A DNA stretch of 60,000 bases from Bolinopsis microptera. Taxonomy: Eukaryota; Ctenophora; Tentaculata; Lobata; Bolinopsidae. Below the pieces are notes generated by a model. That model was not told the origin of the DNA and did not search any database. It saw only the letters and a list, made by a program, of their open reading frames with translations. The translations under genes and the position numbers were made by a program. Below, piece after piece: positions 1,883 to 60,000 of the stretch. Every line of letters begins with the position of its first letter. Positions within the stretch are counted from its first letter, which is position 1. The stretch is from NCBI RefSeq assembly GCF_026151205.1, contig NC_087084.1, forward strand, positions 12,491,453 to 12,551,452, written 5' to 3'.

Positions 1883-4800
1883 ATGACTGCAACGATATCG
1901 TACAGCAGTGCAGGGATAACCTCTGCAGCTGGAGTGATATCTCTTTTGGATGAACCTCAAATAGAGCTGAAGATATTTGCCCTGAACAAGCTCAACCTCA
2001 TTGTCCATGAATTCTGGGCCGAGATCTCAGATGTTGTGGATAAAATGTTAGTTCACATTTTCTACTTGTGTTCCATAAATTATACATTTTTATTCTATAT
2101 TATATAATGGGTATTCCTTTTCTTATTTGAAGTTTAGGGTTTGAATTAAAGTTATTGCGGCTAGCAAAAAGGTACTGAGTTAAAAATTCAAATCAAATGA
2201 AACAATGAAGCCGATTAATGTGATTTTTAAAAGAATTCTTTAGAATTGAATATTTCAATGCGAACTCTTCAGTGAAATTCTGTATGAAGATGAGTCATTT
2301 GAGGAGCAGGAACTATCAGCGCTGGTCGCATCTAAAGTATACTACCACCTTGGAGCATATGACGAAGCACTGCACTATGCGCTAGGCGCTGCCAGTTTAC
2401 TGGACGTCAACCAGTCTTCTGAATATGTTGACACTGTTGTAGGTCAGTTCCTTTCACTGCTTATACATATATTTATATATTATATACTAGAAACCCGCTA
2501 GTCGAAAGCTTAGTACGAGGAAATTCAAAAAATCAGTTATGTTTTAATTTCTCTTCATCATCTAGCTCTGTTATACTGTAGAAATTTAGTTAGGGCAAGA
2601 GTTGATTTTTCTGTGAACAAATTCGTAACAAAGGTTTGTCTACAGGAATGTGTTGTCCATAGTCCCAGGAACCACAAAAAAAACCGTCCAGCTGAAACTT
2701 TTGGGCAAAAATTTTTATAGTCATTTTTCTCCAGGAACCCATACGCCCCACCCCTAATATTGGTTATTCGGCTCCCGAAGGTCTTGAGATCTCCATAGGG
2801 GGTGCAAAATGACCGCAATGGCCACATTATGGCAGGCGAATGATAGTTTCAGAACGATTGGGGCTTTAGTTTTCGAAATAAATGGAATTTTTCGAAATTT
2901 TTCGAAATTTTATTGAAATTTCGAAAAAAAAATATACCAAATTATTTTTAACGCTTATTTCAAATCTATTTAAAAACTCATCTACAAATAGCAAATACAG
3001 TTAATCTAAAATGTGTATTCTCAGTAAATACCATGACAATTATTAATACACAGTTAATATTAATCAAAATTCGCTTGTTCTTCAGGTTCATCATGTCTAA
3101 TGTTTGTGCAGTTCACAAGCTGGCAAACAATTGAAGCCATATTTCCTACATGAACATCTGAAAGTCAAACAGGCCTGTTTCACATCGACAGAACAGTTAC
3201 AACATATAAGGTTCAAAATAGACTCTGGAGCAATTATAGCTTTTGTTGCAACTGGTTCGTAAGTGCCACCAGGAGCCAATTTCCAGCCGTAGTCAAGGGG
3301 ATTCAGACTGTCAGCGTTAAGCATGACCCAGTTATGGTACTGTAAGTAAGCTCTAAGGATGTGCTCCGTTGCTGAAGCTATTGTTGGCTTCAGCAACGGA
3401 GCACATCCTTAGGAATCTCAAAGCAGAAAGAGTCTTTTTCTTGTCACCATAAATGTACTGCAAGAAACAGAGGCCTGCCTCAATAATCTTTTCTTTTGAT
3501 TCTCTCACCGAAAGTAATGTTGCCAACTGACCTTGCTCATCAAAGGTGAGAGCTTTCTTTAGCACTTTAACCTTGCTAAAACCAAACAGTCCACTGACGC
3601 TATCACAACCTGGATTTCTTTACAGCAATATTAGCACAGAACGCTTTTACTCTCATCTTGTGCTCGTGATCTTTAGTAGAAGGCTCATATCCATCAAAAA
3701 TCACAGTAACTTCCCGATTTTTAGGGATAAGCTTCAAGTACTCCATTGCTACCTCACCATAATTGTCACACCCTTTAAATGAGCTTAGTTGGTGAATTAG
3801 CCAACCTCCATCAATGACTAGTGGGATCGTGAAGCTGCAAGATTTAAATGTAGATTGGTTTATGTTTTTGAGGTAGCTACCAAGAGCAGCCTTATTAGAT
3901 TTCCTCATCATCTAATATTGATCAAATAAGCTCATCGGCACCACAGTTAACTCGTATGTTAGGCATTCCTCTATTGAAGTCTCTCTATCAGCAACCAAGA
4001 CTAGACGGTTAAAACACTTCAACGGATCGACTGCAACGCTTTTATTATTCACTTTAACCTGCTTTCTTAGTTGTGTCAAGTTCTTTGCTTTACCTTTGAT
4101 ACTTATCTTATCGATGAATATCAACCCATCTAGCTCACGTTGAAGGACAGCCCCAACGGCCAAACATTCCTCGGGATTCACCTCATCGTTCCCAGACTGT
4201 GATATAAGACCAGTCGAAAAAGATATTAGCTTCGGATTCTGTAAAGTCGACAGTAACTTTAAACCAATTTAATAATTTTCCAAATACATCACAGTTTTTC
4301 TTGATTGATGACTTGGTAAGATCTGAGTGGATGGCAGCTTTAGTTGGTACTACTCGCTTCGATGAATTAGCTAATGAATCTCCAAAAGACTGATTTATTA
4401 AAGCCATCTGATTCAGGGTGGCCACCCATAACTTGTGAGCGGACTCACAATTACACATCCTTCCACTTGTTAATCCACCACTAGATTTAGCTGCCCTCAT
4501 AAGACTCTGCTCTATATGGAGAGGTCAGTCCACACCCCGGCCCACTCGTGGTCGTTGTAACAAACCGTGTGAAGCCCAGTTACTTTGAAGGTCTTTAAAA
4601 GCGCCCCATACTTGACTTCAAAAATAGCATCCTGCTCCAAATACAGTTTTAAAGGTTTTGCATACTGTCCCCTCCCAGCTGCTGCGAAGTAGGGCAGCAT
4701 CAAAGCTACTGCTGATAAATGCATATTGTAGTCGTGCAACCTCTCTGCTCTTATGAAGTCCTTTACTAGTGTTATCATATTGTGGTAAGTAACCCATAGA

Positions 4801-7800
4801 GCTGCTGTTCTACTGTTGGAAAACAGGTTCTTTAGAATCAGAGTTATTTTCTCTGATAGATCCTGAATAGATTTAGTCTTAAAGTTAACACCTAGATGTT
4901 CGTTCACACATTTGTTGATGTAACCTTCCAAGTCTACTAGTTCATCGTCGTAAACTTCTTCCTCTATAGTGAAACAACAAAGAGCGGCGTCGATCAGAAA
5001 GTGGGCTCTCAACGCTTTATATTATTATAGTAAGATCCTCCATCCGATATATGCGTGACGTCTCCAGGATACACGAGTTTGATGAGCTCCTCTAAACCCG
5101 AGTCTGCCATTATATAGCCTATGCAGCCAAGAAAACTCTTGACAGTGTGGAAGCCCCTAACCCTGACCACAATAGGCATCCCAGTTTCCAGTACTATTCG
5201 GGTGGCCTTAATCCACAATGGCAAATCGAATGTGATTATCATCGGCTGTTGTTTGTTAGTTAACCTTGATATTTGTTAATTGAAGTTATTTCCCGAGTAA
5301 GATTTGAAATAAGCGTTAAAAATAATTTGATGTATTTTTTTTCGAAATTTCAATAAAATTGAGAAAAATTCCGAAAAATTCCATTTATTTCGAAAAATAA
5401 AGCCCCAATCGTTCTGAAACTACCGTTCGCCTGCCATAATGTGGCCATTGCGGTCATTTTGCACCCCCCATGGAGATCTCAAGACCTTCGGGAGACGAAT
5501 AGCCAATATTAGGGGTGGGGCGTATGGGTTCCTGGAGAAAAATGACTATACAAATTTTTGCCCAAAAGTTTCAGCTGGACGGTTTTTTTTGGTGGTTCCT
5601 GGGACTATGGACAACATATTCCTGTAGACAAACCTTTGTTACGAATTTGTTCACAGATTGACCCATAAACAGCAATTCTTGCCCTAACTAATTATGGATT
5701 TTTCGTCAAGTTTAAAATATAAATTATAGATATATTCTTGATAGTATTGCCTGAATAAATAGTATCTGGAGAGAAGATTTGTAGGATACAATACTTGAGT
5801 AGGAACAATGTGCCTCGTGACGTGTAAAACTGTAGGTACTTCGCACGACAATAGCTGGATAATGCAACATTGTTCACACACGTTTCGTGTACCTTCTTAG
5901 CTTATCAATTACAGTGAATAGGATATTGACTTTGAGTAGGGAATGTTAGGACATGATTGGATCTGGTGATATAAAGTAAGAATAGCTCATTGCATGTAAT
6001 CCTCAACAAGCTAGTATATTTTTACAGGAAAAATTGTTCATCCTTTTATTTTGTGCTCAATAGGCTTGGCCTGGGCGAAACATACTTATTCATTTCTATA
6101 GCTCATTTTATATACCTCATATTCAGATGACGCTGTTATCAATCTACCTTTTCGTTTGTATTGGTTCGTGATCAAAGGGACAGTTTCAATTTTCCGTATC
6201 ATTACAACCTGTTCCTGACCATACATTTTTCTTGTACGAATTTAAAGCTTTTTTCGATTATGAGTGTTGTGCCTCATAATATGGTAAACACTGAGTAAAA
6301 ATTTAAAATCAGTTATGTTATAGTTTTTTGTCATCATCTATCTATCTATGATCTAGCTCCGTTATATAAATTGTATGGATTTTTATTTGCTGATAACGAT
6401 AAAAGTTTTATTTAAGTATTCCCTAATCGATATTTTTACCGCATCAAAAAACATCAATCACAACCAAAGTTATGGATAGTCATAGCGTAAATTGTAATGT
6501 GAGCTAGTTATGACGTATCATAGAGCAATGAGCATGGCAACACGCGTTGCTAATCTGTCTTTGCTCGCGCACGTGCAATCTCTTGATGTTGCTAAGCAAT
6601 ATCGCAGGTAACCTTCAATGAAATTACACCATTATTCTAACGTTTATTTTACCTCACTTCCGACGTTAATTATAGAAAATCTAATGCCTTAATCAATGAA
6701 ATTGGCCACACCAGAGGGTAGGATTTTGGTCAATTTTCAGTGTCCCCGTTGCCGGGGGGATTTCGTCAAATTTCAAATATAATAATAATATAGATATATA
6801 TTAACTTAGCTATTGTCTATCAATTGGAAGGTGATGGTTGGAGTAGGGATAATTATAATTTGTTTAATTTTAATCGAAATATGCACTAGATATTCAATGA
6901 AATGAAATGGCATTATTCCATCATTGAAACCCCCTTTTCTTTCTCAAACCTCAGCAACCCAAATAATGGTAGTCAACCAAACATTTTTCTATGAAAATTA
7001 TTTGGAATGTTTCGAACATTCCACATAAGCTCTGCTCGGTTTATAACTACAAAATAATCACACCTTTCAGCTCGTGCGATAGATCAGTACATTACACAGA
7101 GGATAAAGTTGTGTGATGATGGTAACGATATCACCATCGACTCAAGATTAGAGCTCATTGTTGAGAAAATGTTTCAGAGATGTTTTGATGACGGCAAATA
7201 CAAACAGGTAACATTTGTAGATTATATATAATTTCAAGACTCTGATATTCCCGAATTTGGAAATGCTATTAATTCTGATTAAATTCTGACCCGCTCATTC
7301 AGTTCCTCATTCCAATTATCTTATAAATTAACTTGGTCCTATGGAAATTTACATCACAGTTAATTGTTTCCAATCTAATCCTCTACCATAAACCAACATA
7401 AAATTTCAACTGTAAAAACACAACTGTAAACATACAACAAACTGTACAAAAATACAACAAAAACACAACAAGTAAAATGCTAATATCAGGCGGTGGGGAT
7501 AGCACTTGAAACAAGACGTTACGATATGTTGGAGTCAGCAATAATGAAGAGTGACGATATACCAAGTCTGCTGAGTTACGCACTGGGCATTGCTATGACA
7601 CTGTTGCAGAAACGAACTGTCAGAAATACGGTCAGTTCCTCGTCTGTGTAGATGAGTTCTGAATATTATAATTAATTAATTATAATTAATTTGTCTTTTA
7701 ACTGCGTACACACTTTGTCAGGTTCCTTTTATAGTTTTGATCTTTATATGGTCATAATATAACTAAAATAACGGAAATATTATGTACATTAAGCCGTGAC

Positions 7801-47155: not shown

Positions 47156-47277
47156 CTAGTTAACGTTACGTAATACACACACCACAAGTACGATAACACA
47201 TGGTTAAAGGGACCAGTTAGGAGAGAGTTTCCTGTGTAATTACAACCAGAGGTTGTGTCATAATACATACATCATAC

Positions 47278-50158
47278 AGCACATAATACAGTTACTGTAA
47301 CGTGTGGTAATACATTTACTGTAACGTGTGGTAATACATTTACTGTAACGTGTGGTAATACATTTACTGTAACGTGTGGTAATACATTTACTGTAACGTG
47401 TGGTAATACATTTACTGTAACGTGTGGTAATACATTTACTGTAACGTGTGGTAATACATTTACTGTAACGTGTGGTAATACATTTACTGTAACGTGTGGT
47501 AATACAGCACATAATACAGTTACTGTAACGTGTGGTAATACATTTACTGTAACGTGTGGTAATACATTTACTGTAACGTGTGGTAATACAGCACATAATA
47601 CAGTTACTGTAACGTGTGGTAATACATTTACTGTAACGTGTGGTAATACATTTACTGTAACGTGTGGTAATACATTTACTGTAACGTGTGGTAATACAGC
47701 ACATAATACAGTTACTGTAACGTGTGGTAATACAGTTACTGTAACGTGTGGTAATACATTTACTGTAACGTGTGGTAATACATTTACTGTAACGTGTGGT
47801 AATACAGCACATAATACAGTTACTGTAACGTGTGGTAATACATTTACTGTAACGTGTGGTAATACATTTACTGTAACGTGTGGTAATACAGCACATAATA
47901 CAGTTACTGTAACGTGTGGTAATACATTTACTGTAACGTGTGGTAATACATTTACTGTAACGTGTGGTAATACATTTACTGTAACGTGTGGTAATACATT
48001 TACTGTAACGTGTGGTAATACATTTACTGTAACGTGTGGTAATACATTTACTGTAACGTGTGGTAATACATTTACTGTAACGTGTGGTAATACATTTACT
48101 GTAACGTGTGGTAATACATTTACTGTAACGTGTGGTAATACATACAGCACATAATACATTTACTGTAACGTGTGGTAATACATACAGCACATAATACATT
48201 TACTGTAACGTGTGGTAATACATTTACTGTAACGTGTGGTAATACATTTACTGTAACGTGTGGTAATACATTTACTGTAACGTGTGGTAATACATTTACT
48301 GTAACGTGTGGTAATACATTTACTGTAACGTGTGGTAATACATTTACTGTAACGTGTGGTAATACATTTACTGTAACGTGTGGTAATACAGCACATAATA
48401 CATTTACTGTAACGTGTGGTAATACAACACATAATACAGTTACTGTAACGTGTGGTAATACATTTACTGTAACGTGTGGTAATACATTTACTGTAACGTG
48501 TGGTAATACATTTACTGTAACGTGTGGTAATACATTTACTGTAACGTGTGGTAATACATTTACTGTAACGTGTGGTAATACATTTACTGTAACGTGTGGT
48601 AATACATTTACTGTAACGTGTGGTAATACATTTACTGTAACGTGTGGTAATACATTTACTGTAACGTGTGGTAATACATTTACTGTAACGTGTGGTAATA
48701 CATTTACTGTAACGTGTGGTAATACATTTACTGTAACGTGTGGTAATACATTTACTGTAACGTGTGGTAATACATTTACTGTAACGTGTGGTAATACATT
48801 TACTGTAACGTGTGGTAATACATTTACTGTAACGTGTGGTAATACAGCACATAATACATTTACTGTAACGTGTGGTAATACAACACATAATACAGTTACT
48901 GTAACGTGTGGTAATACATTTACTGTAACGTGTGGTAATACATTTACTGTAACGTGTGGTAATACATTTACTGTAACGTGTGGTAATACATTTACTGTAA
49001 CGTGTGGTAATACATTTACTGTAACGTGTGGTAATACATTTACTGTAACGTGTGGTAATACATTTACTGTAACGTGTGGTAATACATTTACTGTAACGTG
49101 TGGTAATACATTTACTGTAACGTGTGGTAATACATTTACTGTAACGTGTGGTAATACATTTACTGTAACGTGTGGTAATACATTTACTGTAACGTGTGGT
49201 AATACATTTACTGTAACGTGTGGTAATACATTTACTGTAACGTGTGGTAATACATTTACTGTAACGTGTCATAATACATTTACTGTAACGTGTGGTAATA
49301 CATTTACTGTAACGTGTCATAATACATTTACTGTAACGTGTGGTAATACATTTACTGTAACGTGTCATAATACATTTACTGTAACGTGTGGTAATACATT
49401 TACTGTAACGTGTGGTAATACATTTACTGTAACGTGTGGTAATACAGCACATAATACATTTACTGTAACGTGTGGTAATACAGCACATAATACAGTTACT
49501 GTAACGTGTGGTAATACATTTACTGTAACGTGTGGTAATACATTTACTGTAACGTGTGGTAATACATTTACTGTAACGTGTGGTAATACATTTACTGTAA
49601 CGTGTGGTAATACATTTACTGTAACGTGTGGTAATACATTTACTGTAACGTGTGGTAATACATTTACTGTAACGTGTGGTAATACATTTACTGTAACGTG
49701 TGGTAATACATTTACTGTAACGTGTGGTAATACATTTACTGTAACGTGTGGTAATACATTTACTGTAACGTGTGGTAATACATTTACTGTAACGTGTGGT
49801 AATACATTTACTGTAACGTGTGGTAATACATTTACTGTAACGTGTGGTAATACATTTACTGTAACGTGTGGTAATACATTTACTGTAACGTGTGGTAATA
49901 CATTTACTGTAACGTGTGGTAATACATTTACTGTAACGTGTGGTAATACATTTACTGTAACGTGTGGTAATACATTTACTGTAACGTGTGATAATACAGC
50001 ACATAGTACATTTATTGTAACGTGTGGTAATACAGCACATAATACATTTACTGTAACGTGTGGTAATACATTTACTGTAACGTGTGCTAATACAGCACAT
50101 AGTACATTTATTGTAACGTGTGGTAATACAGCACATAGTACATTTATTGTAACGTGTT
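47278..50158. repeat. 24-bp satellite array, about 120 units
   Basis: The unit is TACATTTACTGTAACG + TGTGGTAA. Variants carry a 12-base addition (GCACATAATACA) or GTT for ATT, and these variants recur at intervals. At 49261-49380 units ending TGTCATAA alternate with TGTGGTAA units. Long open frames on both strands (NTFTVTCG, CITTRYSK and VLPHVTVN repeats) follow from the unit being a multiple of three with few stops. I do not call a gene. Confidence 0.97.
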
Positions 50159-50330
50159 TTAAAAACCCTTAGCCGAATAGAGTCCTCTAAAGCCCCCTCA
50201 GTAGTAAAACTTAAAAGTTTTATTTAGTAAAAGTGTTAATTAATGAATACCCTTGCAGGTACCACCCGTATTCACATTCAGTATTGAGTCAGGTCATTTT
50301 TCAGGATGAGATTGGGGACGGGTTCCCTCA

Positions 50331-53786: not shown

Positions 53787-56700
53787 CTAAAAAGATATCT
53801 TAATAACGTCACCCTTCAAACACTTACTCTTTACTTTCGTCAGACTGAGTTTATGATTACCTAAACTAGTCCGTTTCAAACAGCTAACCAGCGTCTTATA
53901 AACAGCGGTCACTATAAACACGTTACCATGGTTACCTGGTGAACCATCAGCACTCTCAGAACCATCATTACCCTGGTAACCCGCACCCTCGTCACCATGA
54001 CAACCAGATAAAGGCTGTATCATGACGTCACACATAACGTCACTGTCACGTGACACAACTTTAACCAAATCTCTGATAGGACAGGTTCTGATAACGGATA
54101 TAGCAGTGACAATACACATCTGAACCAGCACCAGAGCTAGATTAACAAGTGTAAAGACACAGTAATAGAGCAGTGTGGTAGGGAAGAGGAAGAGAAGGGT
54201 GGAGAAGAGGAGGGTGCCCAGAATCAGCTGATCTCCGTGTGTTTTAACTGAGTCTACCCTGGACCGGAGAGGGTTGTATTTTACTCCAGCAAACAGACGA
54301 CCTGAGGTTAGAGTCATTTTTATTGTGTTTAACATTTAAATTTTAACTTTTGATTGGGGGTTGGCCCGTAGTACCAGTCAATGTTTACACAAAAATATTA
54401 TATGATTATTGTAATAAGATGTATTCATTCCCGCGGGGCACGCAAATATGTAAATATATATATCAAATATCAATATGAGATACGATATTGAACTTTTACG
54501 ATAGGTAAAAGATACAAGACGCTGTAATTGTGATTTGAATTTATATATTTTACACGTGCAATCTGAACACGCGCATTTAATCTGGTATGAACTGCTGTGA
54601 GATTGAGAATGTACACGTGACAATACGACATTCCGTATCTTATACCCAGTACATAATTAGCGTTGTCAGTTCTAAGTTTCATATTACTTCTCGTAACATT
54701 ATGTACTTGAAATTACAATCCCTGTACAGTGTACATTCCTTATGTAGAATTACAGAGAAGTGTAGAGAAAGAGAACAAGGATACAATCCTGATAGTACTA
54801 CCAACCAAAAGTGCCACATATTACTTGGATCTTGGAATGCAGCAAGATTTGACTGTTCGACAGAATATCATGTACTACCGAACAATGTATCTGAATTCTG
54901 ATACAGTTATAGTTTCCGGACTTTTGGTTATGTAATCCACCACGAAACACACATAACAATGCATAAAACAGTGCATTAAACGTAAAATAAAATCTATGCA
55001 AATTGTTTTGAACCGACAATTTAACTTGAACAATTATTACGAGTAACTTAGTCACGCTCGGGTAGCTATTATATTAAAATAAACATTCAGTTGCTAGCTT
55101 GCACACTTACAGTATAACAATTCGTGAGTGATATCCGTGATGTACAACACCGTGACGTCACTATCACGTGACTCAGTGACGTCACTGTCACGTGACTCAG
55201 TGAGAATTAACACCGTGCCTACTCACACTATTCTCATTTAAACGGCCGTAATTCTTGCCACCCCGGCCCCACAGACATTCAGAATAGAGATAAGAAATAT
55301 TAACAATTAAGCAATCACACATAATAATGGGTTTACTGACCTAGCGAAACTAGAGCCTTAAGCTGAGCGCTGTACAAATTACACGCGTACGCGTAGAAAC
55401 AGTGAACATGAAGCAGGAGTATGATGGAGAAAGATAAGGTGTAGGAGAGAAAGCACGTGATTCCCGGGATACAGGTTAGGGATATGGTGTAGAGGATACA
55501 AGGCATGTATCCAGAGATCAGATCTAGATATCCTGCAGGGGGGATTAGGTGTTAGAACCTGTTCAAGATATGGGTCAACGCTCAACAACGATCTATTGCA
55601 ATGTGGTAAAATTATCTAATTCTTATCTATGGTTAAGAAATAATCGAGACAAAATTATAATTGTTCAGCTTTTTGGCTGATCTGATTGTGTCTGAACTCT
55701 AAAAAAGAAGACTAACCTTTAAAAAGGTGAATATGGTAACGGAAGAATAGTCCCAAGAACTGAACGAGCTCGTTATTCAGCTTCAATCCAGCAGGAACTT
55801 CTCCAAGCCAGGATATTGTATGATCAAGAAGGTTAGCTAGCAACACCGCTTTATCTGGAAGAGGAAATGTGTTCTGATTGGTTGGTTTGTGTCACGTGGT
55901 GTGAATACTGTGTTCTGATTGGTTGGTTTGTGTCACGTGGTGTAAATACTGTCTTCTGATTGGTTGGTTTGTGTCACGTGGTGTGAATACTGTCTTCTGA
56001 TTGGTTGGTTTGTGTCACGTTGATAAAATACAGTGTAATGATACGACCCACTTCATAAGGTTCTGACCTATGAGAGAGTCTGAGAATTTGCGGATGTCGG
56101 TGTAGAACCAAAAGTAGTAGAAAAGAAGGAGTCCCAAAGAAATGTCCAGTATCCTGTTTTCTAGCGCCATCTTGGGGAATATATCTCTCCTTAAACGATC
56201 TGTAAAATAACATTGCTAATTAGATAAAATAATTAGTTAATTAAACCACCAAATTCAAATAATAGATCTGAAGATAAGAAAGCAGCAGAAAAACTACCCC
56301 AACAACAAACTGTGTGACTGACAAAGTGAATGTTACAAATAACAATATAACGTGACAGTTCAGGGTACAGTACCTAAAATAGTAGGTTTACTAATGGGGC
56401 TATCCACTGGTTCTGTAGGTGCTGTATCGTCATCAGTGGAGGTGGGCTCTGTGTTTATGTACCTGAAGAAGGGGGCTGTGAAACTCAGACAATAGATCAT
56501 GTGATTAGTATAGGTGTCACGTGTTATGTCACGTGTTATATGAACTTCGTCTCCCGAACTTGCTATTTCATTTTTAGAGCTGTACACGAAACCAATAACA
56601 CTTATTGACGCGAAACAACAACTCCGTCAGACAGGAACACTGAACAGAACAACACAGTATTCACGCAACGTGACTAACCAACCAATCAGAAGACAGTATT

Positions 56701-57080
56701 CAAACCATGTGACTAACCAATCAGAACACAGTATTCAAGCAACGTGACTAACCAACCAATCAGGAGACAGTATTCAAACCACGTGACTATCCAATTTAAA
56801 TACAATATTTAAAGTTCATATCATGTAACACAATAGTATTAATACAACTACAAGACGTGACTAAACAAACTGATCGATTAGAAATAATATTTTAAACTCA
56901 CCTTTCTTTGAATTTCTTCAGAACATGCTCGTTTTGACACACGAATATACAGTTAGCATCGTTAACTAGAGTGTTGCTTTCTGATGAGCTACTATCCACA
57001 TTCCGCCTCTTCATTACTGGTGTTTTATACAACTGGTTAGAAACACTGTGAGTTAGATACACTGGTTTAGTTAGAAACAC
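53787..57080 (-). CDS. PIGQ: Phosphatidylinositol N-acetylglucosaminyltransferase subunit Q (GPI1)
   Basis: PIGQ stabilises the ER enzyme that makes GlcNAc-PI, the first step of GPI-anchor synthesis. Exons: 57080-56902, 56462-56374, 56199-56068, 55854-55717, 55532-55341, 54301-53787. Phases agree and give 414 residues. Matches to the family: ILDISLGLLLFYYFW (membrane), GEVPAGLKLN...FRYHIHLF, GYMPCILYTISL, then GVKYNPLRSRVDS, GDQLILGTLLFSTLLF and FPTTLLYYCVFTLV, with several transmembrane helices. The N-terminus is much shorter than in mammals (about 590 residues or more), lacking most of their non-membrane region. The first Met is uncertain because the frame is open upstream of the conserved part (57080, or 57014 at MKRRNV). 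The C-terminus has a Gly/Asp-rich stretch (HGDEGAGYQGNDG). Confidence 0.9.
55152..55199. repeat. 24-bp direct repeat of CRE + E-box in a PIGQ intron
   Basis: GTGACGTCACTATCACGTGA is repeated as GTGACGTCACTGTCACGTGA 24 bases on, each unit with a full TGACGTCA and a CACGTG. It could be a regulatory element; its position within the PIGQ intron gives no clear target. Confidence 0.75.
55871..56034. repeat. 41-bp tandem repeat x4 with ATTGG and CACGTG, PIGQ intron
   Basis: TTCTGATTGGTTGGTTTGTG + TCACGTGGTG recurs at 55871, 55912, 55953 and 55994. It lies between the exons ending at 55854 and starting at 56068. Confidence 0.92.
56653..56797. repeat. Inverted-orientation copies of the 41-bp PIGQ repeat
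   Basis: Four diverged units of 36-39 bases (ACAGTATTCA...CGTGACTAACCAACCAATCAG) are the reverse complement of the array at 55871. They lie in PIGQ intron 1, so the two arrays face each other across two exons. Confidence 0.85.
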
Positions 57081-57230: not shown

Positions 57231-57236
57231 TTTATT
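57231..57236 (-). terminator. AATAAA polyadenylation signal of DNLZ
   Basis: TTTATT on the plus strand gives AATAAA on the minus strand about 115 bases after the DNLZ stop codon. No comparable signal was noted between EMC6 and DNLZ. Confidence 0.55.
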
Positions 57237-57349: not shown

Positions 57350-57799
57350 TCAACCCCCCTTCTCCCCTGCCGCTTCATTAAACAAACCCAGATCAGTCAC
57401 ATCCAGCAAATCAACATCCGACAAAGTCTTCACCTCCTCCTCCTTCTCCCTCAAAATATCCACAACATTAACCTTCTCATCCCTGAACCACCCCAGGTTA
57501 TCCGCTATAAGATGTAAATTATCACACCCGTCACACCTTATCAACACTACCCCCTGCTCATACGACTTCTTGGACATTGTCTTAGCTTGTCTGGTCTTAC
57601 AGACATTACACGTGAAGATTATTGACATGGTGGGCTTTATTCGTCCGATTGTAGTCTGATCTGATAGCAAGCGAGATAAAGGAATGCTGGGTATTTGATT
57701 CTGATTACATAATCCTGATTGTATGCCAGGGGTGTTGAAGTTGCGTCCCACAGCGCCCAGAATAACACGCGAACATCTTAAAAACCTGCTAGTAAACAT
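57350..57799 (-). CDS. DNLZ: DNL-type zinc finger protein (mitochondrial HSP70 escort, Tim15/Hep1)
   Basis: DNLZ keeps mitochondrial HSP70 soluble in the matrix. This single-exon frame has 149 residues, similar to the family. The N-terminus MFTSRFLRCSRVILGAVGRN is rich in Arg and hydrophobic residues with no acids, a typical import presequence. The zinc ribbon has CNVCKTRQAKTMSKKSY and, 22 residues on, CDGCDNLHLIADNLGWF with the DNL motif. An acidic tail follows. The start codon at 57799 overlaps the end of EMC6 by 11 bases in a different frame. Since the presequence begins at this Met, the overlap seems real and not an annotation choice. Confidence 0.93.
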   Translation of the reverse strand: MFTSRFLRCSRVILGAVGRNFNTPGIQSGLCNQNQIPSIPLSRLLSDQTTIGRIKPTMSIIFTCNVCKTRQAKTMSKKSYEQGVVLIRCDGCDNLHLIADNLGWFRDEKVNVVDILREKEEEVKTLSDVDLLDVTDLGLFNEAAGEKGG

Positions 57800-58106
57800 T
57801 AACCAGCCCGTAGAGAAATGTCCAGAAAAGAATGAAAGTCAGCGTTCCCCCGAGTACTCCCGTAGTCCAGATATCCCACGAGGACAGGAAATACTTCTGC
57901 CAGGTGAAATTAGCTTTTCCTATGAGAAGAACTGACATAAGTAGGGAGGAAAATATGTAAAAGACAAAGCCGTGAATACCGTATAGTCCGAGAACGCCGG
58001 CCACGCTGCCTGAGATTGCAGAAAGCGCAGTGCGGCAGTAATTCAACACCACGTGGTTCATTTGAAGTGCGGACGCGCTTAGCGCTGATGCTTCTTTACG
58101 TATCAT
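57789..58106 (-). CDS. EMC6: ER membrane protein complex subunit 6
   Basis: EMC6 is a small core membrane subunit of the EMC insertase. This single-exon frame has 105 residues, close to the human 110. NYCRTALSAISGSVAGVLGL, GFVFYIFSSLLMSVLL and the C-terminal FILFWTFLYGLVNVY match the family, with three hydrophobic segments. Its stop codon (57789-57791) lies inside the first codons of DNLZ, so both must share one primary transcript. The minus-strand sequence before the ATG contains AAATACCAG twice (20-base repeat), a possible cis- or trans-splice acceptor. Confidence 0.94.
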   Translation of the reverse strand: MIRKEASALSASALQMNHVVLNYCRTALSAISGSVAGVLGLYGIHGFVFYIFSSLLMSVLLIGKANFTWQKYFLSSWDIWTTGVLGGTLTFILFWTFLYGLVNVY

Positions 58107-58190
58107 AACTACCTGGTATTTAATTAATTACCTGGTATTTAATTAATTATTTAATTAAATAATTAATTTAATTAATTATTTAATTAATTT
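58107..58190. repeat. AT-rich (TTAATTAA)n and duplicated AAATACCAG upstream of EMC6
   Basis: ACCTGGTATTTAATTAATT is present twice in tandem, followed by TTAATTAA palindromes. Confidence 0.7.
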
Positions 58191-59542
58191 GGTTGACACC
58201 TACAACTTACTATTCTAGTTAATCACACGTGTCGAGTATTTACAGTTAAGTGAGTTCCATGTTATTATTATGGTAAGCACTGTAAATTATAGTTGGCAGA
58301 TCTAGTAATGATCGGCGGAATGTTATCAGTATAAAATTCAATGCAAAAAATTACAGTTAAATTACTTTATTATCTATAAATTTGGTCTAATTTTGATGCA
58401 ATGAAAATCTCTGTCGCGTTTGTCTGAATAAAAACGATAATATGTAGAATGAGGCAAAACAAAAACTTATGCCGAAGCTTCATATCTGTCATTGTAACAA
58501 TTTTACATTGTGCTATAATATAAACTTTGTAAAAACCAATTTTGCAGTAATCGAATTTCCAATAAATAACTATCACACAATAAAGGACAAATTACATCAC
58601 TTTAACCCATAGCTTAGAAAATAATGTATCGTTAAGAGAGTTATTAATCATCTATTAGTCTAGGATAATAATGCGAAGGGTATAGGTATTGGCATGACGA
58701 CATTTAGAAATTTTAAGAAATTTCTCATAATTTATAACGAGGGTAATAATGTGCATAGTTTAGAGGGGTACTTAATTAATTAATTAATTAATTAGGGGTA
58801 CTTAATTTAAATCGTACAAACAAAGCTTAGTATTTACAAAACATCAATATCTTTTCCTCAAATATTTACCAAAATAATGCTAAAAATAGCTCAACGGATC
58901 AATGTTTAACGCTTGGAATGTCATGATTAGTAAAGTTGTGACTGTCTTATCTGCTTTTATGTTCAGCACGTGCTTCGAATGGATGTTATCGTTAAGTTTA
59001 GCCTTTATTTCAAATAAAATAATAATATATGCTGTGTCATTATGGACATAATACGTTGAGAAGTTTAACACAGTAGTTTGACTTGGAACTACTGTTGTTG
59101 TAAGGAAACAGTTCAGTGGATCATGTTTTGAGGTACACAGCAGGTAATTAGTAACTAATTAGGTAATTAGTTACTGATTAGGTAATTAGTTACTAATTAG
59201 GTAATTAGTTTAAACGACAAACTCGGAGTTATCCATACACCACAGTCTTATTAGGCAAAAACACGTCACATCATGATAAAATTAATAAACCCTCAATAAT
59301 ACTTTTCAAGCGGTAAAAACGTAAATCAATCCCGATTCTTTGTTTTCAACGGTTATTGCACAGTATCAAAGAAATGTACTAATAATCAAAATTGGTATAA
59401 ACGCACGATTTGCTAATTCAAAATTTTTTACAAACTTATAGTATAAATTCAAATCACTAGCCTGCAGTGAACACCCAATCTCTGCAAAACCTATTTTTTT
59501 AAAAAATTGACGACTGATAAATGAACTAAACATAACTATACG
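58191..59542. other. Intergenic region between ARF-like gene and EMC6
   Basis: AT-rich. (TTAA)n-type runs lie at about 58771-58793. A repeat of ~22 bases (ACTAATTAGGTAATTAGTT) lies at about 59140-59212. Two minus-strand frames of 60-70 codons have no recognisable features. No gene is called. Confidence 0.4.
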
Positions 59543-59998
59543 TCACTTCTTCTTTTTCCTCCTCTTATCTCTCTTATGATCCTTAATCATCTCAGCAATA
59601 ATCTCAATTCCCTCCCAGATGCCCTCCCCGGTAACCGCACACGTACCCTGCACATACCAGCTGTGGTTATTGTATCTGTTCATGTGCAGCTGCTCAATTA
59701 GTTGAGGTGGGTTAACAGCTCCCCGCATGTCCTGTTTGTTACCGAATATCATTATGGGCACGTCCTGCATCTCTGGTAATGCCAACAAGTTTGACAGTTC
59801 TTCTCGTACTTCGTCAACGCGAGTAAAGTCCCAGCAGTCCACCACGAAGATGAGCCCGTCAGTACCTTTGAGGTAGTGTTTCCAAAGGGGACGCAGTTTT
59901 TGTTGTCCCCCAATGTCCCAGACAGTGAAACTGACACTTTTGGAATGTTTGACCGTCTCCACATTGAATCCGATAGTTGGAATGGTGCTGACAGTTTC
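59543..59998 (-). CDS. ARF/ARL-family small GTPase, 3' part (5' end beyond the window)
   Basis: The frame is open from the window edge (ETVSTIPTIGFNVETV) to the stop at 59543, about 151 residues. It has the switch I TIGFNVE, the G3 motif WDIGGQ followed by KLRPLWKHY, NKQD (as GNKQDM) and TCAVTGEG, all in ARF order. The P-loop and N-terminal amphipathic helix are off the window. The C-terminus DHKRDKRRKKKK is strongly basic, unlike ARF1 but like ARL4, whose basic tail binds phosphoinositide membranes. The core otherwise reads closer to ARF. The role is probably vesicle or plasma-membrane traffic; the subfamily is undecided. Confidence 0.9.
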   Translation of the reverse strand, partial: ETVSTIPTIGFNVETVKHSKSVSFTVWDIGGQQKLRPLWKHYLKGTDGLIFVVDCWDFTRVDEVREELSNLLALPEMQDVPIMIFGNKQDMRGAVNPPQLIEQLHMNRYNNHSWYVQGTCAVTGEGIWEGIEIIAEMIKDHKRDKRRKKKK

Positions 59999-60000
59999 AT

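Follow-up and report, generated by a model that had tools for sequence, protein, structure and literature searches.

Overlapping EMC6 and DNLZ genes in the ctenophore Bolinopsis microptera and candidate routes to DNLZ expression

Dicistronic animal messages that are translated from both frames are known, for example GDF1/CERS1 and Drosophila stoned. In Ciona, a trans-splicing animal, many operons have no intercistronic sequence according to two reports (PMC7986045, PMC11155486), the second of which also gives a definition of the Ciona operon. Two further reports describe a test of the RFC140-flp operon of Hydra by a two-reporter construct (PMC3273482) and a chaetognath survey (PMC12460157).

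In the ctenophore Hormiphora a leader was found on 56% of Iso-Seq reads (PMC8527503), yet PMC7986045 gives operons as unreported in ctenophores as of 2021. It is this combination – a leader on over half of the mRNA reads and no reported operon – that gives a ctenophore gene pair such as the one described here its significance. Among the matches listed in literature searches, no paper title named a ctenophore operon, and neither of two listed papers that mention both EMC6 and DNLZ has a title about gene order. According to PMC10232365, Iso-Seq data exist for Bolinopsis, and long reads were used to fill gaps in the assembly of B. microptera. The EMC6-DNLZ pair is a concrete candidate for an operon with an internal acceptor, for a true dicistronic message, or for two plain overlapping genes.

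The EMC6-DNLZ overlap and its surroundings

The window, meaning the whole 60,000-nucleotide stretch that was analysed, is C13:12491453–12551452 and has a G+C content near 38%, and the host genome that was searched comprises 264,652,675 bases in 232 contigs. EMC6 and DNLZ lie head to tail on the minus strand, and their coding regions share 11 nt (57789–57799) that are read in two different frames, as the original prediction held. The following features were placed in this part of the window:

59543..60000, minus strand: 3' part of an ARF-like GTPase gene (PF00025, E=1.5e-47)
58106..57789, minus strand: EMC6 coding region, 105 codons plus TAG, without intron (PF07019 and structure alignment)
57799..57350, minus strand: coding region of DNLZ (zf-DNL, HSP70 escort), 149 codons plus TGA, without intron; residues 1–58 presequence-like
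57789..57799, minus strand: 11-nt overlap, from the DNLZ ATG to the EMC6 TAG, in two frames
56907..57014, minus strand: probably the first exon of the gene that follows on this strand, which may be PIGQ (open reading frame and acceptor-like site only)
55715–55891 and 53790–54335, minus strand: PIGQ (Gpi1) exons (PF05024, E=1.8e-10 and 7.5e-26)

The predicted EMC6 protein matches the whole of the Pfam model PF07019 (E=2.9e-22, profile positions 1–81 of 81). Against the EMC6 chain of solved EMC structures (6ww7, which we take to be the human complex), residues 8–105 of the query align with residues 13–110 of the 110 in the chain. The alignment thus reaches the last residue of both chains, so the EMC6 stop looks like the true end of the protein. 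The protein covers the full length of the domain model and agrees with the family at its C-terminus, which places it in EMC6. Directly before the EMC6 ATG (58107–58200) the sequence is repetitive and rich in TTAATTAA, and taaataccaggta occurs there twice.

The predicted DNLZ protein matches PF05180 over residues 60–121 (E=3.2e-30, profile positions 2–63 of 64) and Tim15 (2e2z, E=4.7e-17), and its DNL zinc finger places it in the Tim15/Zim17 family. These matches agree with the earlier view that both proteins are full length. The same prediction had a mitochondrial presequence starting at the overlapping ATG, and here the evidence is divided. Residues 1–58 contain seven lysines and arginines and one acidic residue (D+E), and the strongest amphipathic moment of the protein lies at residues 5–22; composition and moment, the two measures by which the presequence was assessed, both agree with a mitochondrial presequence. 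Codon usage across residues 1–58, judged with codon counts from ten glutamate-receptor-like frames of 654–894 codons each, is neutral and lends no support. No in-frame ATG lies upstream of the DNLZ start within its open frame (stop to stop, 57353..57838), and in the other direction the first in-frame ATG is that of Met58, where the zinc finger core borders on the N-terminal part. Loci L002–L011 and L013 contain glutamate-receptor-like genes whose open frames are long. In a comparison by way of these receptors, vertebrate-type kainate receptors came first among 481 matched sequences, and the Mnemiopsis receptor domain ML032222a was among the 60 listed, so that the comparison did not settle the species.

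The EMC6 protein and the DNL zinc finger each gave a single match in the genome and no second copy, and both genes are therefore presumably expressed from this locus. The idea that second copies elsewhere might excuse an overlapping pair was rejected on the same search. As far as sequence alone goes, the overlap is real, and it is more than a chance pairing of open frames because both proteins belong to real families. A search for EMC6 relatives in viral_contigs gave six pattern matches, none of which was confirmed.

The order of genes on the minus strand is two photolyase-like frames, the ARF-like gene, EMC6, DNLZ, PIGQ and a gene of the CSN8/PSMD8/EIF3K type. Five frames between 50.7 and 60 kb were among the 45 best-scoring frames of the window plus a further 29.7 kb, after filtering of repeat-like frames, and all five are on the minus strand. 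The ARF-like GTPase is seen as a 193-aa frame in locus L033 (PF00025, E=2.3e-63), where two adjacent photolyase-like frames of 537 and 476 aa lie upstream of it (minus strand, 5036–1320). From the ARF-like stop to the EMC6 ATG there are 1,436 nt. The spacing expected of a spliced-leader operon, with same-strand neighbours close together, is seen on the other side: EMC6 and DNLZ are at −11 nt, and the DNLZ stop is 335 nt from the next ATG. This ATG opens the probable first exon at 56907..57014 and has an acceptor-like site (top 0.4%) 18 nt before it; the 36-aa piece encoded there had no Pfam match.

Two other parts of the window contain open frames of less certain status. A long tandem repeat at 47258–50223 (of the CITTRYSK type), in which either strand can be read without a stop for as much as about 690 codons, is probably not a gene. 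At 3356–5021 there are minus-strand frames among the exons of a gene for a proteasome subunit that is encoded on the plus strand (RPN2_N at 2250–2498). They are possibly a nested gene or a mobile element, and the pieces 3356–3619 and 4515–5021 had no Pfam match at the cut-offs used.

Neighbours of other short genes were surveyed at three Tim10-family matches (L041, L042 and L043), a sample too small for claims about operons. In L041 (minus strand, 1695–1004) a Tim10-family gene is followed by a same-strand KIF2A-like frame (PF22923, E=7.4e-24) 281 nt after the Tim stop. No strong acceptor precedes the KIF2A-like ATG: the best within 285 nt is in the top 16%, and another is in the top 21%. No same-strand neighbour could be named beside the Tim10-family genes of L042 and L043, where a sub-threshold Swi5 match (L042) is on the opposite strand.

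Spliced-leader RNA genes in the genome

The 3' end of the Hormiphora leader was searched in the genome with two mismatches allowed, giving 643 matches, compared to 386 with the reversed pattern. Most of the 643 are noise, but there is a cluster on C13. It consists of tandem units of about 0.9 kb in which a spliced-leader (SL) RNA gene alternates with 5S rRNA. The array is at C13:12.806–12.899 Mb (L022–L025 and L027–L032), outside the window and about 256 kb away on the same chromosome. A blastn search with one array copy gave 98 rows in 93 kb (ten fragments, 12.806–12.899 Mb), all on the plus strand; these include the query copy and the halves of copies at fragment ends, and exclude three rows from a duplicate locus. 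The sequence covered begins 170 bases before the first copy, and the array may therefore extend closer to the window. Two array fragments contained 20 plus-strand matches to 5S rRNA at E up to 0.01, of which 19 exceeded the gathering score.

A consensus of 88 array copies contains, besides the leader, a donor of sequence GTAAG, two hairpins, one of them 3', and a ATCTTTTGG stretch that may be an Sm site. The leader in this consensus has one T fewer than the copies that were inspected individually. The putative SL RNA, as assembled from copies and consensus, folds at z = −2.96, with two of 200 shuffles as good. Its leader, the 5' end of which was set by homology to Hormiphora, is identical to the published Hormiphora leader at 40 of 46 positions (score 31, versus at most 12 in 2,000 shuffles). 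The other array copies share 70–84% identity with the query copy and show numerous indels, a divergence that probably reflects unpolished long-read sequence.

Leaders that bring their own ATG are known from flatworms. The leader as delimited here contains none, and this candidate was set aside. The result holds for the 5' end adopted here, since the genomic consensus has an ATG a few bases before that point. Linkage of SL RNA genes to 5S rRNA repeats is known in other taxa, with the two genes alternating in a tandem repeat as they do here. No ctenophore report of this linkage was found, and the term "5S rRNA" is absent from the Hormiphora paper (PMC8527503).

With the tandem repeat and a leader of 40/46 identity, SL RNA genes are present in this genome. 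A spliced leader is probably available in the host, as judged from the array, and the animal very probably uses spliced leaders. Since it carries these genes, separately processed EMC6 and DNLZ messages would be likelier than a single message.

Candidate routes to DNLZ expression

Splice sites and poly(A) signals around the DNLZ start that bear on its expression are as follows:

58126..58134, minus strand: donor-like site cag/GTAATT just upstream of the EMC6 ATG (top 0.6% of 7,885 GTs)
57932..57951, minus strand: best-scoring acceptor-like site between the EMC6 and DNLZ ATGs (ttcctccctacttatgtcag), a candidate trans- or cis-splice acceptor
57636..57641, minus strand: AATAAA inside the DNLZ frame, a possible EMC6 poly(A) signal
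57231..57236, minus strand: AATAAA after the DNLZ stop, a possible shared poly(A) signal

Acceptors were scored with a model built from 18 of 24 junctions of four myosin loci, picked by eye; six were dropped because the boundary could not be placed by eye, and two further myosin junction pairs were left out for length. The 18 known acceptors scored −5.6 to 8.0 when left out, with a median of 1.9. The donor model was built from 18 donors, including one whose junction was absent from the acceptor set, and donor scores, unlike those of the known acceptors, were not computed with the site left out.

The original prediction saw no AG acceptor just before the DNLZ ATG, and this was confirmed: the nearest upstream AG ends 57 nt away (57857) and scores poorly. 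As an argument against a spliced leader it is weaker than was stated, given the SL RNA array, the leader-bearing Hormiphora reads and the site at 57932. The AG ending at 57932 scores 4.4 (4.388), in the top 1.4% of the 6,693 AGs on both strands of the window and above the median of the known acceptors. The site comes shortly after the last Met codon of EMC6 (57938), and the DNLZ ATG follows 132 nt later. All three ATGs that precede the DNLZ ATG are in the EMC6 frame and upstream of this site, and from 57932 to the DNLZ ATG there is no ATG in any frame, so that trans- or cis-splicing here would make the DNLZ ATG the first.

The candidate scores as well as true acceptors, yet an acceptor as good occurs in 9.8% of random stretches of 139 nt and in 20.7% of those of 300 nt. 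When EMC6 was recoded synonymously 10,000 times, an equal acceptor arose after the last Met in 8.4% of cases, a sequence free of ATG in 15.4%, and both in 1.4%. A short way before the EMC6 ATG there are donor-like sites, ranked among the GTs of both strands of the window, of which 58131 is the strongest; together with 57932 it would define a candidate alternative cis-intron of 200 nt with the same effect as a trans-splice. The nearest acceptor-like site of EMC6 itself (58113) is weak (top 13%); a strong one is found 173 nt upstream. Splicing at one of the AGs near the beginning of DNLZ (57789, 57786 and 57777) was not preferred because the start codon would be lost.

The leading explanation is that DNLZ is separated from EMC6 at the RNA level by splicing within EMC6; it would be the most plausible of the four considered, while falling a little short of an even chance. 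The two genes, packed head to tail, would be cotranscribed. The DNLZ mRNA would receive a 5' end by splicing onto an acceptor within the EMC6 coding sequence, for which 57932 is the best candidate, and the 5' exon would more likely be a spliced leader than the product of a cis-intron from the donor-like site at 58131. Splicing at 57932 would remove the EMC6 start and both internal Met codons, leaving 132 nt free of ATG ahead of the DNLZ ATG. The unspliced message would act as the mRNA of EMC6 and end either within DNLZ or beyond it, and each pre-mRNA molecule could yield EMC6 or DNLZ, not both. The data show the overlap, the two proteins, the SL RNA genes and the site scores; we infer cotranscription, the expression of the SL RNA and its use at this locus, the use of 57932 and the choice of poly(A) signals.

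Splicing within EMC6 is supported by the SL RNA-5S array, the identity of the leader to that of Hormiphora and the leader-bearing Hormiphora reads; by the above-median score of 57932, its ATG-free tail, the rarity of the two together in recodings and the donor at 58131; by the strong acceptor-like site before the next same-strand ATG; and by the precedent of Ciona operons without intercistronic sequence. It is weakened by the absence of a well-scoring AG in the last 57 nt ahead of the DNLZ start, by the frequency of equal acceptors in random and recoded sequence (the coding sequence of a membrane protein is T-rich anyway), by an acceptor set of 18 of 24 junctions chosen by eye, and by the weak acceptors at 58113 and before the KIF2A-like frame. 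The absence of ATG traps across the whole of EMC6 is not needed by this explanation and fits scanning better. The full form of the model, a ctenophore operon with an SL acceptor inside the upstream coding region and a pre-mRNA that becomes either EMC6 or DNLZ, is tentative and on balance improbable. If true, it would be a built-in choice between the protein-handling machineries of two organelles – an ER insertase subunit and a mitochondrial chaperone escort.

Next comes the dicistronic translation that was originally proposed, a minority candidate that is clearly less probable than splicing. A single mature mRNA would carry both frames, and DNLZ would be made by leaky scanning past the EMC6 start or by backward reinitiation after the EMC6 stop, which overlaps the DNLZ start. 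The overlap and the ATG content of EMC6 are in its favour. EMC6 contains no out-of-frame ATG before the DNLZ start, as was the case in only 2.3% of 5,000 and 1.9% of 10,000 synonymous recodings (mean 2.9 in the latter; P=0.023 and 0.019). Of 728 overlapping windows taken across 13 other frames, DNLZ among them, 16 likewise had none (mean 4.4). This test was post hoc; its P of about 0.02 favours scanning. By eye, the contexts of the start codons point both ways. In favour of this model, C occupies −3 at both internal ATGs of EMC6. Against it, there are three ATGs to bypass, the first has G at −3, and the DNLZ start is flanked by T at −3 and at +4, which vertebrate rules would class as poor. In eukaryotes, reinitiation is as a rule inefficient once 105 codons have been translated. 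The candidate acceptor at 57932 leaves a splice route open.

Somewhat less probable again is a promoter and cap site of DNLZ's own inside EMC6, in which case the genes would overlap but be uncoupled. Any start in the roughly 135 nt between the last EMC6 Met and the DNLZ ATG would then work, as this interval is free of ATG, and no special RNA processing would be required. The promoter would have to sit in the EMC6 coding sequence, and ATG-free tails, found in about 15% of recodings, lend it little weight.

An artefact or another DNLZ start, by a sequencing indel or by an unseen upstream exon that is spliced just after the ATG and supplies the DNLZ N-terminus, is very improbable: the noisy stretches of the assembly (such as the divergent, indel-rich SL array copies), the AG ending at 57786 (score −0.8, top 16%) and the neutral codon usage of DNLZ residues 1–58 would allow it, but EMC6 aligns to its last residue and the DNLZ frame is open from its ATG through the zinc finger, with a presequence-like helix at the start.

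Comparison with known systems

If the two genes are separated by splicing within EMC6, the nearest described parallels are in animals with spliced leaders. Like many Ciona operons, EMC6-DNLZ is a pair of gapless same-strand neighbours in an animal of this kind. In Ciona, as described in the reports cited above, the second gene was shown to receive the leader, whereas EMC6-DNLZ is known from the genes alone; and unlike those operons, the EMC6 and DNLZ coding regions overlap, so an acceptor would sit inside the upstream coding sequence. The RFC140-flp operon of Hydra is likewise a one-strand gene pair in a non-bilaterian with spliced leaders, but it has intergenic sequence, which EMC6-DNLZ does not.

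If a single message is translated from both frames, the closer parallels are GDF1/CERS1 and stoned. There, as here, two full proteins are encoded on one strand and the upstream frame has few ATG traps. The EMC6 start, unlike theirs, is not in a clearly weak context, and EMC6-DNLZ has been described as a gene pair rather than as a message.
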